Source: Sulfurimonas sp. | Lineage (GTDB): Bacteria; Campylobacterota; Campylobacteria; Campylobacterales; Sulfurimonadaceae | Length of the DNA: 64,000 bases | NCBI RefSeq assembly: GCF_029027405.1 | Contig: NZ_CP093396.1 | Location: forward strand, 1,116,001 to 1,180,000 | Direction: 5' to 3' | In this document: positions 13,044 to 55,305 of the stretch, in pieces | How positions within the stretch are numbered: the stretch's first letter is position 1 | Layout of the letters: every line of letters starts with the position of its first letter | Position numbers and translations under genes: made by a program | The notes under the pieces: generated by a model | The model's input: only the letters and a program-made list of their open reading frames with translations | What the model was told of the DNA's origin: nothing | Databases searched by the model: none

Positions 13044-13119
13044 GTCTTGTTAGCTCAGCTGGTAGAGCACGTCACTTTTAATGATGTGGCCGATGGTTCG
13101 AATCCATCACAGGACACCA
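13044..13119 (+). tRNA. tRNA-Lys (TTT)
   Basis: 76 nt including an encoded CCA. The acceptor stem GTCTTGT pairs with ACAGGAC, with one G-T pair. The D arm is GCTC/GAGC, the anticodon loop CTTTTAA gives TTT, and the T loop is TTCGAAT. It is the first gene of the cluster, 29 nt after a consensus promoter. Confidence 0.96.
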
Positions 13120-13133
13120 TTTTATTTACGGTT

Positions 13134-13210
13134 GCGGTGGTAGTTCAGCTGGTTAGAATACCTGCCTGTCACGCAGGGGGTCGCGAGTTCGAATCTCGTC
13201 CACCGCGCCA
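13134..13210 (+). tRNA. tRNA-Asp (GTC), copy 1
   Basis: 77 nt with encoded CCA. The acceptor stem is GCGGTGG/CCACCGC, the anticodon loop CTGTCAC gives GTC, and the T loop is TTCGAAT. It is identical to the copy at 14005. A long inverted repeat begins at its 3' end. Confidence 0.97.
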
Positions 13211-13297
13211 TTTTTTTGATTATTTGCACTTCAGTGGTTAGCTCATGTACTTAAAGTACACTTCGTTAAAAACTTCAGCACAACTAATTCAAAAAAA
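13211..13297. repeat. Long imperfect hairpin repeat, copy A1
   Basis: An 87-nt inverted repeat directly follows tRNA-Asp. The outer arms are T7-GA...TTA...TTG and CAA...TAA...TCA7. The tip is the perfect palindrome TGTACTT-A-AAGTACA. The arms pair imperfectly in between. A second copy (A2) lies at 13777-13862. It could be a tRNA-linked terminator/processing hairpin or a small REP-like element. Confidence 0.65.
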
Positions 13298-13311
13298 TCA
13301 AGTTTATTTAA

Positions 13312-13391
13312 TTTTTTGTTTAGACAAGGCGAGACTGATTGAGGAATAGTTTACTATCCGAAAGAGGGAACAACGAAGTATAAACTAAAAA
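13312..13391 (+). repeat. Structured inter-tRNA spacer, copy B1
   Basis: This spacer ends 5 nt before tRNA-Val. The outer stem is TTTTTTGTTTA (13312-13322) with TAAACTAAAAA (13381-13391). Inside is a hairpin GGAATAGT/ACTATCC, preceded by CAAGGCGAGACTGATTGA. Compared with copy B2 the outer stem carries a G-C pair where B2 has C-G, a compensating change. Confidence 0.65.
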
Positions 13392-13396
13392 GCAGA

Positions 13397-13472
13397 GGGC
13401 GTTTAGCTCAGTTGGTAGAGCGCTACCCTTACAAGGTAGATGTCACAAGTTCGAGTCTTGTAATGCCCACCA
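13397..13472 (+). tRNA. tRNA-Val (TAC), copy 1
   Basis: 76 nt with encoded CCA. The acceptor stem is GGGCGTT/AATGCCC with a G-T pair, and the anticodon loop CTTACAA gives TAC. It is identical in sequence to the second copy at 13701. Confidence 0.96.
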
Positions 13473-13498
13473 TTAATAAACCTTTTGTTTATGAAAGT

Positions 13499-13574
13499 GA
13501 CCCTTTCGTCTAGTGGCCAAGGACACTATCACTTCATGGTAGGGACAGAGGTTCAAATCCTTTAGGGGTCGCCA
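13499..13574 (+). tRNA. tRNA-Glu (TTC) with C33 in the anticodon loop
   Basis: 76 nt with encoded CCA. The acceptor stem is GACCCTT/AGGGGTC, the D arm GTCT/GGAC, the anticodon stem CTATC/GGTAG (one T-G pair), and the T arm AGAGG-TTCAAAT-CCTTT. The seven-base loop is ACTTCAT, so the anticodon TTC is preceded by C at position 33, where tRNAs almost always have U. Confidence 0.9.
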
Positions 13575-13617
13575 TTTTTTGGTGTTATAAATTTTAGATT
13601 TAATTTTAAACTTTTGA

Positions 13618-13695
13618 TTTTTTCTTTAGCCAAGGCGAGACTGATTGAGGAATAGTTTACTATCCGAAAGAGGGAACCGAAGTATAAAGTAAAAA
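13618..13695 (+). repeat. Structured inter-tRNA spacer, copy B2
   Basis: Same plan and near-identical interior as B1. The outer stem is TTTTTTCTTTA (13618-13628) with TAAAGTAAAAA (13685-13695), and the central hairpin is GGAATAGT/ACTATCC. It ends 5 nt before the second tRNA-Val, as B1 does before the first. Confidence 0.65.
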
Positions 13696-13700
13696 GCAGA

Positions 13701-13776
13701 GGGCGTTTAGCTCAGTTGGTAGAGCGCTACCCTTACAAGGTAGATGTCACAAGTTCGAGTCTTGTAATGCCCACCA
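13701..13776 (+). tRNA. tRNA-Val (TAC), copy 2
   Basis: 76 nt, base-for-base the same as the copy at 13397, including the CCA end and about 70 nt of upstream spacer. This points to a local duplication of a spacer-plus-tRNA unit. Confidence 0.96.
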
Positions 13777-13862
13777 TTTTTCGATTATTTGCACTTCAGT
13801 GTTTAGCTTATGTACTAAAGTACACTTCGCTAAAAACTTCAGCACAACTAATTCAAAAAAAA
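13777..13862. repeat. Long imperfect hairpin repeat, copy A2
   Basis: Near-copy of A1, here directly after tRNA-Val. The tip palindrome is TGTACT-AA-AGTACA, and the outer T and A runs are kept (5-6 T against 8 A). The shared core runs from GATTATTTGCACTTCAG to CTTCAGCACAACTAATTC, with scattered substitutions. Confidence 0.65.
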
Positions 13863-13890
13863 TAGACAATTTGTTATATAAAATTCTTGA

Positions 13891-13989
13891 TTTTTTCTTT
13901 AATCAAGGCAGGTTCTTGAGTGAATGAAGGAGCATAGTTATACTGTGTGACGAATGAGCGAAAGGTTCTAACGCCGAGTAAAGTAAAAA
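13891..13989 (+). repeat. Structured inter-tRNA spacer, copy B3 (diverged)
   Basis: It shares the outer stem TTTTTTCTTTA (13891-13901) with TAAAGTAAAAA (13979-13989) and the CAAGGC start. The interior is different and longer, with a hairpin CATAGT-TAT-ACTGTG. It precedes the second tRNA-Asp by 15 nt. Confidence 0.55.
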
Positions 13990-14004
13990 GCAATATTTTA
14001 GAGT

Positions 14005-14081
14005 GCGGTGGTAGTTCAGCTGGTTAGAATACCTGCCTGTCACGCAGGGGGTCGCGAGTTCGAATCTCGTCCACCGCGCCA
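14005..14081 (+). tRNA. tRNA-Asp (GTC), copy 2
   Basis: 77 nt, identical to the copy at 13134. It is the last gene of the cluster and ends 7 nt before the stop codon of the convergent rodA gene. Confidence 0.97.
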
Positions 14082-27533: not shown

Positions 27534-28778
27534 ATGTTTTCTATCTCGCAAGATTTTGCACCTCCATTTAAACTTATCTCTCCATTCTTTATTTTGGGGA
27601 GTCTGTTTTACTTATTAGCTTCTTTTTCAATATTTTCTTTTTCATCTGAAAATCTTTTCATGTTAGATACAAAAGTTTTAAGCTTGGTACATTTATATCT
27701 ACTAGGTTTTGTTATGATGGTTGTTTTTGGGGCTATGGCACAGTTAGTACCAGTTGTACTAGAAGTAGGTCATGCTGCAGTTGAACTCTTTTATATTATT
27801 TGGCCACTTCTTGGTATTGGTGTTATTTTAATGGTTCTTGGATTTATTGCATATCCTTCATTTTTACCATATGGTGGAACAGTAGTTTTAATTTCTATGA
27901 TGCTATTTGTTATGGAAATTTTTGCAACCATGAGAAAAGTAAAAAAATTAAATGTAGTAATAAGTAGTGTTCTAATCTCAAATACATTTTTGTTTTTTGG
28001 TATTATTTTCGGTCTTGTGATGGCTCTAGGCTATTCAGGAACTATTGACATAGATATTATTACTCTTCTTCGATCACATGTTTATTTAGTAATAGGGGGT
28101 TATATAACTATAACACTTATGGGCTTATCTGTTGTTCTACTGCCAATGTTTGGACTCTCTCATGGATTTTCAATGAAACCACTTCACATATCTATTACTT
28201 TGATGAGTATTTCAATCATATTAGTAGTAGTTTCATCATTTGTTGAATACTTATTTATAGAATATCTAGCTTATGCATTAGCTGTAGCATCTATGCTGTT
28301 ATATTTTTATCTTACATATACAATTTTTAAAACAAGAGCAAGAAAAGAAATAGATATATATGTTATGTCACTTATGTATGCTTACTTTTCAATGATAATT
28401 TCTTTGGTTTTTGGAGTAGCATATCTAATATTGTCTAATGAGATTCTACTACTTACTAGTGCTTGGCTTTTATTTTTTGGATTTTTTGGTTTTGCAATAA
28501 CAGGACATATTTATAAAATAGTTCCATTCCTTGTCTGGTTTGAGCGTTTTTCTCCACTTGTTGGAAAAGAAAAAGTACCGATGTTAGCAGATATGTTACC
28601 AAAGAAAAGCTCTCATGCACAATTTGTTTTTTGTGCTATTGGAGTTAGTACAGTAGCTATTGCAATTTTGATGCAGAATGAAACACTAATAAAAGCAGGT
28701 GCTTCATTTTTAGTTGTGGGTGCAATGGCGCTTGTTAGAAATGTTTTATATATGATAAACTATAAAGTAAAACACTAG
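27534..28778 (+). CDS. Polytopic membrane protein, NnrS/haem-copper-like candidate
   Basis: 414 residues with about twelve hydrophobic helices and short loops. Potential metal or haem ligands occur inside helices: His in LSLVHLYLLGF (about residue 52), GHAAVE, RSHVYLVIGGY and LSHGF. The His-in-helix pattern and the neighbours suggest an NnrS-like or quinol-oxidase-related protein tied to NO or metal handling, but I cannot assign a family with certainty. It follows the DUF2249-like gene by 9 nt, so it belongs to the same transcript. Confidence 0.6.
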   Translation: MFSISQDFAPPFKLISPFFILGSLFYLLASFSIFSFSSENLFMLDTKVLSLVHLYLLGFVMMVVFGAMAQLVPVVLEVGHAAVELFYIIWPLLGIGVILMVLGFIAYPSFLPYGGTVVLISMMLFVMEIFATMRKVKKLNVVISSVLISNTFLFFGIIFGLVMALGYSGTIDIDIITLLRSHVYLVIGGYITITLMGLSVVLLPMFGLSHGFSMKPLHISITLMSISIILVVVSSFVEYLFIEYLAYALAVASMLLYFYLTYTIFKTRARKEIDIYVMSLMYAYFSMIISLVFGVAYLILSNEILLLTSAWLLFFGFFGFAITGHIYKIVPFLVWFERFSPLVGKEKVPMLADMLPKKSSHAQFVFCAIGVSTVAIAILMQNETLIKAGASFLVVGAMALVRNVLYMINYKVKH

Positions 28779-28784
28779 TGTTTT

Positions 28785-28922
28785 GGGCTTTCTGCCGAAG
28801 AAAATAAAGCGTTAGCGTAGGTATCGGAATTACTTCCGATACCGTAATAAAAAGATGAAGGGTTTCCTTCATTTTACAAGGTGCCCCTTGAGGGTATAAA
28901 ATAAAATTAAGGAATTTTAATT
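28785..28922 (+). promoter_or_regulatory. Three-hairpin leader element, copy 1
   Basis: Upstream of the MIP18-type gene: hairpin 1 TTTCT-GCCGA-AGAAA (28789-28803), the linker AAGCGTTAGCGTAG, hairpin 2 GGTATCGGAA-TTAC-TTCCGATACC (28820-28843) and hairpin 3 ATGAAGG-GTTT-CCTTCAT (28855-28872) followed by TTTTA. An extra CAAGG/CCTTG hairpin and the ribosome site AAGGA come next. The whole unit is repeated at 49401-49516 before an unrelated gene. Confidence 0.7.
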
Positions 28923-29228
28923 ATGATGTACTCAAAAGAAGAATTATTTTTAGCTATCTCTACTGTTATAGACCCAGAAGTTGGTTTTAATCTTGTTGAA
29001 ATGGGACTTATATACGATGCTGAGTGTGATGATGAAGGAAATGCAAATGTAACTATGACTCTTTCTACAAAGGCTTGTCCTATGCATCAAATGATACAAC
29101 AATGGGTAAAAGAGTCAGTAGAAAAAATGGCTAATATAAGAGAAGTTGAAGTAGAAGTTGTTTGGGAACCAGTATGGAATATTACAATGGCTGATGATAA
29201 TGTTAAAAAAGCTCTTGGAGGGGCTTAA
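28923..29228 (+). CDS. MIP18/PaaD-family (DUF59) iron-sulfur assembly-type protein
   Basis: 101 residues. DUF59 features: TVIDPEVGFNLVEMGLIYD near the N-terminus, MTLSTKACPMHQMI with the conserved Cys in the middle, and VVWEPVWNITMA near the end. Relatives (SufT, PaaD, the MIP18 part of Cia2) help mature FeS proteins. Here it may serve a metalloprotein made by the neighbouring cluster. The start ATG at 28923 lies 9 nt after AAGGA within the structured leader. It overlaps the convergent REC gene by 4 nt. Confidence 0.85.
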   Translation: MMYSKEELFLAISTVIDPEVGFNLVEMGLIYDAECDDEGNANVTMTLSTKACPMHQMIQQWVKESVEKMANIREVEVEVVWEPVWNITMADDNVKKALGGA

Positions 29229-49382: not shown

Positions 49383-49400
49383 AAATCGCACTTGTGCGAT

Positions 49401-49516
49401 GAGCTTACCGCTGAGGTAAACTAAGCGTTAGCGTAGGTGTTGGGACTAGTTCCGATACCGTGTAAATAGATGAAGGGTTTCCTTCATTTTATGAAATAAA
49501 ATCAAGGAATATGATT
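49401..49516 (+). promoter_or_regulatory. Three-hairpin leader element, copy 2
   Basis: Between nadE and the aminotransferase gene: hairpin 1 TTACC-GCTGA-GGTAA (49405-49419), the linker AAGCGTTAGCGTAG, hairpin 2 GGTGTTGGGAC/GTTCCGATACC (49436-49459, with G-T pairs) and hairpin 3 ATGAAGG-GTTT-CCTTCAT (49470-49487), then TTTTA and AAGGA before the ATG. A separate hairpin (ATCGCAC/GTGCGAT, 49385-49400) precedes it. Confidence 0.7.
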
Positions 49517-50638
49517 ATGAAAATACCATTTAATAAATATAATAGCGGACGAGAAGAACATAGTAATGTAGCAGATGTATTAGATGCTGAAGATTTAAAT
49601 CAAGTTTCTAAATTAGAAGATGAATTTGTTTCATATATTGGAGCGGGATATGCACTAGCAACTTCTCATGGAACTTCTGCACTTCACTTGGCAATGTTAG
49701 CGCTTGATTTAAAACGAGGGGACAAAGTTGTTTGTAGTGTAAATGCGCATCCAAGTTTGCCAGAAGTTGTTCGCCACTTTGATGCTGAACCTATTTTTAT
49801 AGATATAGAGCCTCTAAATTATAATATTAACTTAGATTTACTAGAAACTTACCTTGAAGACAATCAATCTAAAAAATTAAAGGCAGTTATAGTTACGCAT
49901 ATTGGTGGATTAAGTGTAGACTTAGACAGACTTTACTCAATTGCTAAGATTTATAATGTAAAAATAGTCGAAGATGCAAGTGAAGCCTTAGGTGCAACTT
50001 TTAATGGTGTAAAAATAGGATCTACTGGTGCAGACATTACCTGTTTTAACTTCTCTTCTCACTTAAAGAAGAACGTTTGTAATGGTGGGATGCTTGTAAC
50101 TGATGATGATGAAATCATGGAGAGAGCAAGACTTTTAAGTAACCATGCAATCGAGCGTGATGAAGATGCTTTAGAGTATATTTATGATGTTGTAGATATT
50201 GGCAATAATTATTCTATGAGTGAGTTAGATGCTGCCTATATTAGAGCTCAAATAAAAAAACAAGATAAAAATTTAGCAAGACAGAAAGAGATAGCAAGTA
50301 TGTACAGTGGAAGTCTTGAAGGTACGGCGCATATAACCTTACCAGATATGTCAAATAAAGAGCATCCTTTTTCTTTGTTTATTGTAAAAGTAGATAAAAA
50401 TCGTGACTCTTTTGCACTAGAGCTTAAAAAAGTAGGTGTGGAGTGTGGGCTTCACTACATTCCACTTCATCTTTTAACTTACTACAAAGCAAAGTACTCT
50501 TTAAAAATTAACAATTTTCCAAAAGCCCTACAAAGCTATCAGCAAATATTATCTATCCCTATCTATTCAAGTATGGATGATAAAGATGTTAAATTTGTTT
50601 GCGATAAAATAAAACAAATAGCAAAAACTAGAGTTTAA
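49517..50638 (+). CDS. DegT/DnrJ/EryC1-family PLP aminotransferase
   Basis: 373 residues from the ATG at 49517, which is 8 nt after AAGGA; the ATG at 49511 is too close. Family features: YALATSHGTSALHLAMLAL (cofactor phosphate region), IVEDASEALGA (Asp holding the PLP ring), CFNFSSHLKKNVCNGGMLV (Lys for the Schiff base) and YSMSELDAAYIRAQI. These enzymes transfer amino groups to nucleotide-linked keto sugars for LPS, capsule or flagellar glycans. It is 5 nt upstream of lpxK, in line with surface glycolipid synthesis. Confidence 0.9.
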   Translation: MKIPFNKYNSGREEHSNVADVLDAEDLNQVSKLEDEFVSYIGAGYALATSHGTSALHLAMLALDLKRGDKVVCSVNAHPSLPEVVRHFDAEPIFIDIEPLNYNINLDLLETYLEDNQSKKLKAVIVTHIGGLSVDLDRLYSIAKIYNVKIVEDASEALGATFNGVKIGSTGADITCFNFSSHLKKNVCNGGMLVTDDDEIMERARLLSNHAIERDEDALEYIYDVVDIGNNYSMSELDAAYIRAQIKKQDKNLARQKEIASMYSGSLEGTAHITLPDMSNKEHPFSLFIVKVDKNRDSFALELKKVGVECGLHYIPLHLLTYYKAKYSLKINNFPKALQSYQQILSIPIYSSMDDKDVKFVCDKIKQIAKTRV

Positions 50639-54888: not shown

Positions 54889-55305
54889 GTGAAAATTTTT
54901 TTACAATTTTTTCTTTTTTTAGTGCTAAGCGTTAGCGTAGTTCACGCGGACGAGTTTAGAGATATAGTTAGTGTATCTTTAAAAAAAGATGAAGTAAAGA
55001 AAATTCTTGTAAAATATGGTTCAGTTTCTAAACTATTGAAATTTAGATGGACATTGTATAAAAATGATGGGTTAATTATTCATCGTTCTTACGACAGAGT
55101 AATAGCACAAAATATTCTTTATCTTAGATATAAAAATGAAAGTTTTAGAGTTGTGCTAAAACCTAAAGGTGCTGATTATTACAAGGTTCCTTATTTATTA
55201 GTACAATTTAAAAAATTTGATTTTGAAAAAGATGAAGCAATATTTGACTTACTTCTGTCTGATAAAAGTATGTCAGTTAATTTAAAATATTTGAAGAATA
55301 ACTAA
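54889..55305 (+). CDS. Exported protein of unknown function (Cj0540-like position)
   Basis: 138 residues. The GTG start gives a signal peptide (1-20, cleavage after VVHA) followed by a basic beta-rich domain: KKILVKYGSVSKLLKFRWTLYKN and FRVVLKPKGADYYKVPYLL. I do not recognise the fold. C. jejuni has an exported protein (Cj0540) in the same place. Codons 10-15 of the signal peptide contain AAGCGTTAGCGTAG, a 14-mer also found in both copies of the three-hairpin leader. Confidence 0.72.
   Translation: MKIFLQFFLFLVLSVSVVHADEFRDIVSVSLKKDEVKKILVKYGSVSKLLKFRWTLYKNDGLIIHRSYDRVIAQNILYLRYKNESFRVVLKPKGADYYKVPYLLVQFKKFDFEKDEAIFDLLLSDKSMSVNLKYLKNN

Follow-up and report, generated by a model that had tools for sequence, protein, structure and literature searches.

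Neisseria REP2 sequences are short dispersed repeats that lie upstream of several unrelated genes and influence their expression (PMC3898611). The pneumococcal BOX, RUP and SPRITE repeats are intergenic, structured if transcribed and MITE-like, and in some cases the preceding gene ends at a stop codon that the repeat provides; BOX is modular, and the spread of these repeats belongs to the past, new insertions being few (PMC3049150). GTAG REPs, which are linked to RAYTs and reported also from the epsilon division, are palindromic, intergenic sequences of 20-40 bp, often arranged as dimers, in which an unpaired GTAG precedes a stem with compensated changes (PMC3733652). In the sulfur-oxidising Beggiatoaceae, unfolded direct repeats of the heptamer TAACTGA lie just upstream of unrelated start codons and have a proposed role in translation, in genomes where canonical ribosome sites are rare (PMC4679880). 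Riboswitch-type leaders, finally, form mutually exclusive hairpins by which the Shine-Dalgarno (SD) sequence is either exposed or masked. The small interspersed repeats of bacteria are generally regarded as parasitic, with side effects on occasion.

The element described here, from Sulfurimonas, resembles Neisseria REP2, pneumococcal BOX and SD-sequestering leaders in its behaviour. The account of REP2 with which it was compared mentions neither a covarying multi-hairpin core nor dual SD pairing (PMC3898611). Unlike the MITE-like pneumococcal repeats, the element shows no terminal inverted repeats, for which reason a MITE was rejected (in the alignment its 5' end, the palindrome of hairpin H0, and its 3' end, ATAAAATTAAGGA, are by eye not mutual inverted repeats), and those copies that carry its 3' module sit at the SD in one orientation. 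Compared with the REPs it is longer, mostly single, pairs the G of its GTAG and has no RAYT link, and in contrast to the TAACTGA heptamers it is folded and accompanied as a rule by a canonical ribosome site. Compared with riboswitch-type leaders, its downstream genes are unrelated and its occupancy sporadic, and no Rfam family reaches its gathering score for the element. An integron attC site is one long imperfect hairpin; the core of the element is a chain of separate hairpins and is unlikely to be an attC site. A literature search on Sulfurimonas intergenic repeats, stem-loops and riboswitches, which covered few subscription journals so that a description elsewhere is possible, returned neither this element nor any regulatory RNA of the kind in the genus. 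The sole match in a search of annotated plasmids was in a coding gene.

Copies in the window, the genome and the genus

The window, the stretch of 64,000 nucleotides that was analysed, contains two copies of the element, both on the + strand. The original prediction held that two intergenic gaps share one plan (hairpin H1, the linker AAGCGTTAGCGTAG, hairpins H2 and H3, then the SD), and every feature it described in them was found letter for letter. The element is longer than the unit it had outlined, with H0 preceding H1 and a further hairpin, H4, extending into the SD. In copy 1, H0 is the palindromic hairpin AAAACACTAGTGTTTT (28769-28784), within which the upstream ORF terminates (stop codon TAG, 28776-28778); in copy 2 it is ATCGCACTTGTGCGAT (49385-49400), directly after the stop codon of an NAD synthase gene (ORF end 49382; PF02540 match). 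H0 is compensated between the two copies, and in both cases the upstream same-strand gene ends at the element. H1 reads TTTCT-GCCGA-AGAAA in copy 1 (28789-28803) and TTACC-GCTGA-GGTAA in copy 2 (49405-49419), the stems differing by two compensating pairs. It is crossed by another pairing, of GGC (28786-28788) with GCC (28794-28796) in copy 1 and, compensated relative to this, of AGC (49402-49404) with GCT (49410-49412) in copy 2. The linker is identical in the two copies (28807-28820, 49423-49436; about 0.12 matches with up to two mismatches are expected by chance), and within it lies a mini-hairpin, GC-GTTA-GC in copy 1 (28809-28816) and GCGTTAGC in copy 2 (49425-49432).

Copy 1 H2 is GGTATCGGAA-TTAC-TTCCGATACC (28820-28843); that of copy 2 (49436-49459) differs at three places in its 5' arm, each giving a G-T pair. 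H3, ATGAAGG-GTTT-CCTTCAT, is the same in both copies (28855-28872, 49470-49487). In copy 1 it contains the anti-SD tetramer CCTT (28866-28869), from which the H4 region runs to the SD AAGGA (28909-28913) of a gene for a 101-aa FeS_assembly_P (MIP18-type) protein (28923-29228; PF01883, E 2.1e-15). Copy 2 H4 is CCTTCATTTTAT-GAA-ATAAAATCAAGG (49481-49507), whose last AAGG belongs to the SD AAGGA (49504-49508) of a DegT/DnrJ/EryC1/StrS aminotransferase gene (49517-50638; PF01041, E 2.7e-79).

The H4 loop of copy 1 additionally harbours a separate 17-base hairpin repeat, GGTGCCCCTTGAGGGTA (28880-28896, + strand). The same repeat, GGTRCCCCTTGAGGGTA, recurs in this genome and its congeners inserted in the H1, H2 or H4 loops of the element, with one orientation shared by the copies seen, and was also found in apparent coding sequence and within a larger repeat of another genome (G011); it represents a second, smaller dispersed hairpin.

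A covariance model and a genome search had been proposed along with the two copies. The model (R1) was built from seven copies and found 11 significant ones in this genome, a single contig of 2.83 Mb. Since five of these are further full copies and four are divergent or partial, the sample is far larger than the original two. The genes behind them, named from N-terminal sequences, are the MIP18-type gene, degT, hypB, ilvC, yajQ, an HP0268 homologue, era, tkt, ilvD and secG, and one further copy precedes a 67-aa protein without a Pfam match. A third exact linker 14-mer in the window (54927-54940, in the signal-peptide region of the ORF at 54889-55305) was rejected as a copy, as flanking hairpins are absent and its R1 score is 19 bits (E 1.5); it is chance or a relic.

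Copies are carried by 32 of 37 Sulfurimonas genomes (this one included), with 1-22 in each, and weaker copies were seen in five genomes of other families. Matches to the core pattern across genome contigs were nearly all in Sulfurimonas and other Campylobacterales. The core measures 88 nt and the elements 88-140 nt, and most stand singly. On these grounds the window copies are members of an undescribed, predicted RNA family of about 130 folded bases in Sulfurimonas and its relatives, for whose annotation across many genomes the element is a ready model. Core-only relatives were also observed in other families of the order, at 20 loci in genome G055 and seven in genome G039, several of them with a 3' hairpin of their own in place of the SD module (AGAGTTCT..AGAACTCT in G055; TTCGGCGGAGCCGAA in G039).

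Covariation of the fold

The core consists of H0, H1 with its crossing pairing, the mini-hairpin and H2. Segments from 55 copies were cut out via their fit to R1 and re-aligned with MAFFT, giving a nearly gap-free alignment in which we found 288 two-sided compensated cells against 78±10 in shuffled data, spread over 23 of the 26 pairs; 95.9% of core cells are paired, compared with 33-55% in slid controls. For the whole element in 90 copies the corresponding figures are 500 against 126±16, with two-sided changes in 31 of 32 modelled pairs. Within the 55 cores, H0 covaries and is 93% paired, H1 is 98% paired with two-sided changes in four of its five pairs, and nine of the ten H2 pairs show such changes. 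The mini-hairpin forms either GC-GTTA-GC or GT-GTTA-AC (inner pair UA in 26 and CG in 24), and the last G of GTAG, in the ..CGTAG before H2, is base-paired and covaries (GC in 45, AU in 6). The crossing interaction joins the three bases GRC before H1 to GYC in the H1 loop and is paired in 99.4% of cells; its outer pair (columns 26-36) is GC in 36 and AU in 19 of the 55 copies, with zero exceptions. With zero linker bases in its crossing geometry, the interaction could represent either a tight pseudoknot or else an alternative hairpin.

G-T and T-G together occupy 53 cells versus 9 for A-C and C-A (two weak pairs excluded). Because G-T so far exceeds A-C, the folded strand is the + strand of the element, which at genes is the mRNA strand; taken by itself this asymmetry marks the strand and would fit either RNA or single-stranded DNA of that strand. 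Covariation also continues at fixed loci: close orthologous copies differ by 38 double-changed pairs where 9.4 are expected, and 36 are still paired (19 genome pairs, not fully independent), which suggests that the fold is under selection where it resides. The earlier suggestion of selection for RNA structure is hence strongly supported for the folded sense strand, by core, whole-element and ortholog covariation together with the G-T/A-C asymmetry. The original prediction had named two patterns that would point to a plain DNA repeat, namely genome-wide copies lacking pairing support and copies in random orientation inside genes; pairing is supported in the former, and copies with the 3' module do not show the latter.

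The 3' module and its position at Shine-Dalgarno sequences

The 3' module is made up of H3 (AAGG..CCTT) followed by H4 (CCTT-n-ATTTTAT-gaa-ATAAAAT-n-AAGG), the last AAGG being the SD. Its CCTT can pair with the upstream AAGG, forming H3, or with the SD AAGG, forming H4; 62 of the 67 modules have one tetramer capable of both pairings. As judged from this pairing potential, the SD-free and SD-paired structures would be mutually exclusive. H4 carries 31 two-sided changes against 8.7±2.2 in shuffled data (e.g. ATTTTGT/ACAAAAT and ATTTTAC/GTAAAAT), and retains a mismatch beside the CCTT:AAGG block, which is itself unable to covary because the SD is fixed. The predicted energies of the two states are close, with the SD-free state favoured by a median of 2.2 kcal/mol and the preference reversed in some copies, yajQ among them. 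In a search for stand-alone SD modules all eight in this genome were attached to an element, and several in other genomes were attached to other core types. Three loci carry a second type of core (..ACTTTAGTCGCC..GGCGCAAGCGGAG..) and five a third (..AAGCTTTAGTGCC..AGCGGCTAGCG..), in each case on the same H2-H3-H4-SD module, and at luxS-like and dnaK orthologues the core type differs between species.

Of the 90 R1 copies, 80 have directly downstream, in sense, an SD with the start codon of an ORF whose minimum length was set at 60 codons; in antisense 8 do. The module is present in three of the ten remaining copies, for which short contigs or ORFs appear to be the limit. The SD forms part of the R1 model, which makes the finding of SD-adjacent copies partly circular, and a model of the core only (R2) was run on complete genomes to test for this ascertainment. 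It added few Sulfurimonas copies, and the core-only ones were 4 sense and 4 antisense of 13, with 14 and 7 of 20, respectively, in the distant genome G055. A purely ascertained SD bias was rejected, the core-only copies being few and unbiased. As these copies show no orientation bias, the link to the SD belongs to the 3' module, and cores need not stand at translation starts.

Other genes found downstream include dnaK, rplS, luxS and flgG, and the downstream genes share no function. A metabolite riboswitch was rejected, given that they do not belong to one pathway (ilvC, hypB, yajQ, dnaK, rplS, luxS, flgG and others). At ilvC a TATAAT-like sequence common to the congeners stands upstream of the element, which would place the element within the transcribed leader. 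A covarying fold on the mRNA strand and a same-strand position adjoining the SD, both of which were found here, would characterise a cis-regulatory leader that controls the SD. The idea of a cis-regulatory RNA therefore stands in part, for a selected-looking mRNA leader that abuts the SD; the regulation itself belongs to the putative scheme set out below.

Insertion, persistence and alternative readings

Comparison with congeners revealed three empty sites. At the MIP18 locus congeners read ..AATTATAAATAAGGAAA..ATG, and this genome reads ..AACTATAAA, the element and AAGGAATTTTAATTATG, with the upstream gene now terminating at the TAG inside H0. Between nadE and degT the empty site is ..ATAACTCTATAAAGGAAAA..ATG, and the occupied one ..ATAACCTTGTAA, the element and AAGGAATATGATTATG; at ilvC, ..TTACTCAAGGAAATACAATGG compares with the element and AAGGAAATAAAATGG. 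At each of these loci the native SD follows the element immediately, and by eye none shows a clear target-site duplication beyond A/T-rich bases. The last part alone (ATAAAATTA-AGG-like) is kept in genome G017 at MIP18 and degT and in G015 and G002 at ilvC, and these sequences look like remnants of the element. The MIP18 copy was found in one of about 20 genus genomes having the gene, the ilvC copy in three of about 24 inspected (plus the two remnants) and the degT copy in this genome alone among those read. Because occupancy is so sporadic, no single gene needs the element.

Mean core similarity is 0.77 for orthologous copies, 0.62 within a genome and 0.64 for the unrelated background. Since a copy resembles its orthologues more closely than it does the other copies of its own genome, most copies are old and inherited, and a recent within-genome burst was rejected, 0.62 being the level of background. 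The mobile structured repeat that had been proposed holds in part, in that the element is dispersed and was inserted.

The best reading of these sequences, to which we would assign a probability of roughly 55%, is that of dispersed, formerly mobile structured RNA leaders, inserted 5' of SDs with their fold retained, in which competition between H3 and H4 would control access to the SD. Small elements would have inserted exactly 5' of existing SDs, often between neighbouring co-oriented genes, and then been kept while selection maintained the fold. On the transcript, H3 would be the first to form, with the SD left accessible; if H3 were opened or the core changed, the CCTT would pair with the SD in H4 and translation would fall. 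Candidate triggers are a protein, temperature, or ribosomes arriving from the gene upstream, and the core might either tune the H3/H4 competition or do a second job, such as processing. A dispersed element would in this way have landed at a ribosome-binding site carrying its complement and evolved there by compensating changes, which makes the transition from a mobile repeat to a means of translational control directly testable.

The main rival, on balance unlikely but a serious one, is a selfish miniature element of the IS200/IS605 or REP type, with hairpins kept for mobility. A Y1-type transposase would place it on the 3' side of a bottom-strand TCCTT, equivalent to the 5' side of AAGGA. AAGGA sites other than SDs are mostly within coding regions, from which insertions would be purged, so that the element would come to be seen at SDs. 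The three loci with an insertion exactly 5' of AAGG suit such an enzyme, as does a CCTT that complements the target in a manner resembling guide-target pairing, but two complete and copy-rich genomes (G031 and G032) have no Y1 gene, Y1 presence does not track copy number, and the three Y1 genes of this genome have no element nearby. RAYT/IS200-IS605 was accordingly rejected as the present mobiliser, Y1 genes being absent from those two genomes and unlinked to copies, and these facts, together with the 88-nt multi-helix core, led us to reject REP/RAYT membership as well. The ..CGTAG before H2 resembles that of GTAG REPs (PMC3733652), yet its G is paired and covarying. A selfish element would also account for the copies inside a 23S rRNA gene and next to a tRNA gene, whereas it leaves unexplained the compensatory changes that accrue between resident orthologous copies, and within-genome copies are no more alike than background.

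A bolder extension of the SD-access reading, which we consider doubtful, is a mobile riboregulatory cassette: an SD-targeting element would install a ready-made translational switch before housekeeping genes and place them under one shared signal genus-wide. If so, the distinct 5' cores that share one SD module would serve as different sensors with a single output.

Somewhat less probable again is an RNA processing or stability element, whose intercistronic hairpins would, as reported for ERIC and Correia repeats, offer a site to an endonuclease or shield a 3' end and decouple the genes of an operon, the H3/H4 module merely keeping the SD accessible. A sense gene ends within -40 to +20 of the element in 50 of 89 copies, and in 26 its stop codon is inside the element, as such a role would have it; the conservation of H4 and of CCTT:SD complementarity nevertheless goes beyond the needs of a shield. 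One locus (G012, contig C1, 465501-465660) holds two cores, head-to-head inverted, inside a 23S rRNA gene (an LSU_rRNA match spans it), at a point that looks like helix 45, a recognised place of intervening sequences. Intervening sequences of 23S rRNA are excised by RNase III. The inverted pair favours processing, but single copies form no one long duplex. Transcripts of ERIC and Correia repeats are cleaved (review PMC3049150). Very improbable is the transcription attenuator or terminator that was also proposed, since a chain of hairpins does stand in front of a gene but the + strand of neither copy has a terminator-like GC-rich hairpin with a T run, and the last hairpins run into the SD with which the element ends.

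Elsewhere in the window, six tRNA genes lie at 13044-14078, two pairs of them with identical scores, and the spacing of 304 bases between the tRNA matches at 13397, 13701 and 14005 suggests tandem duplication.
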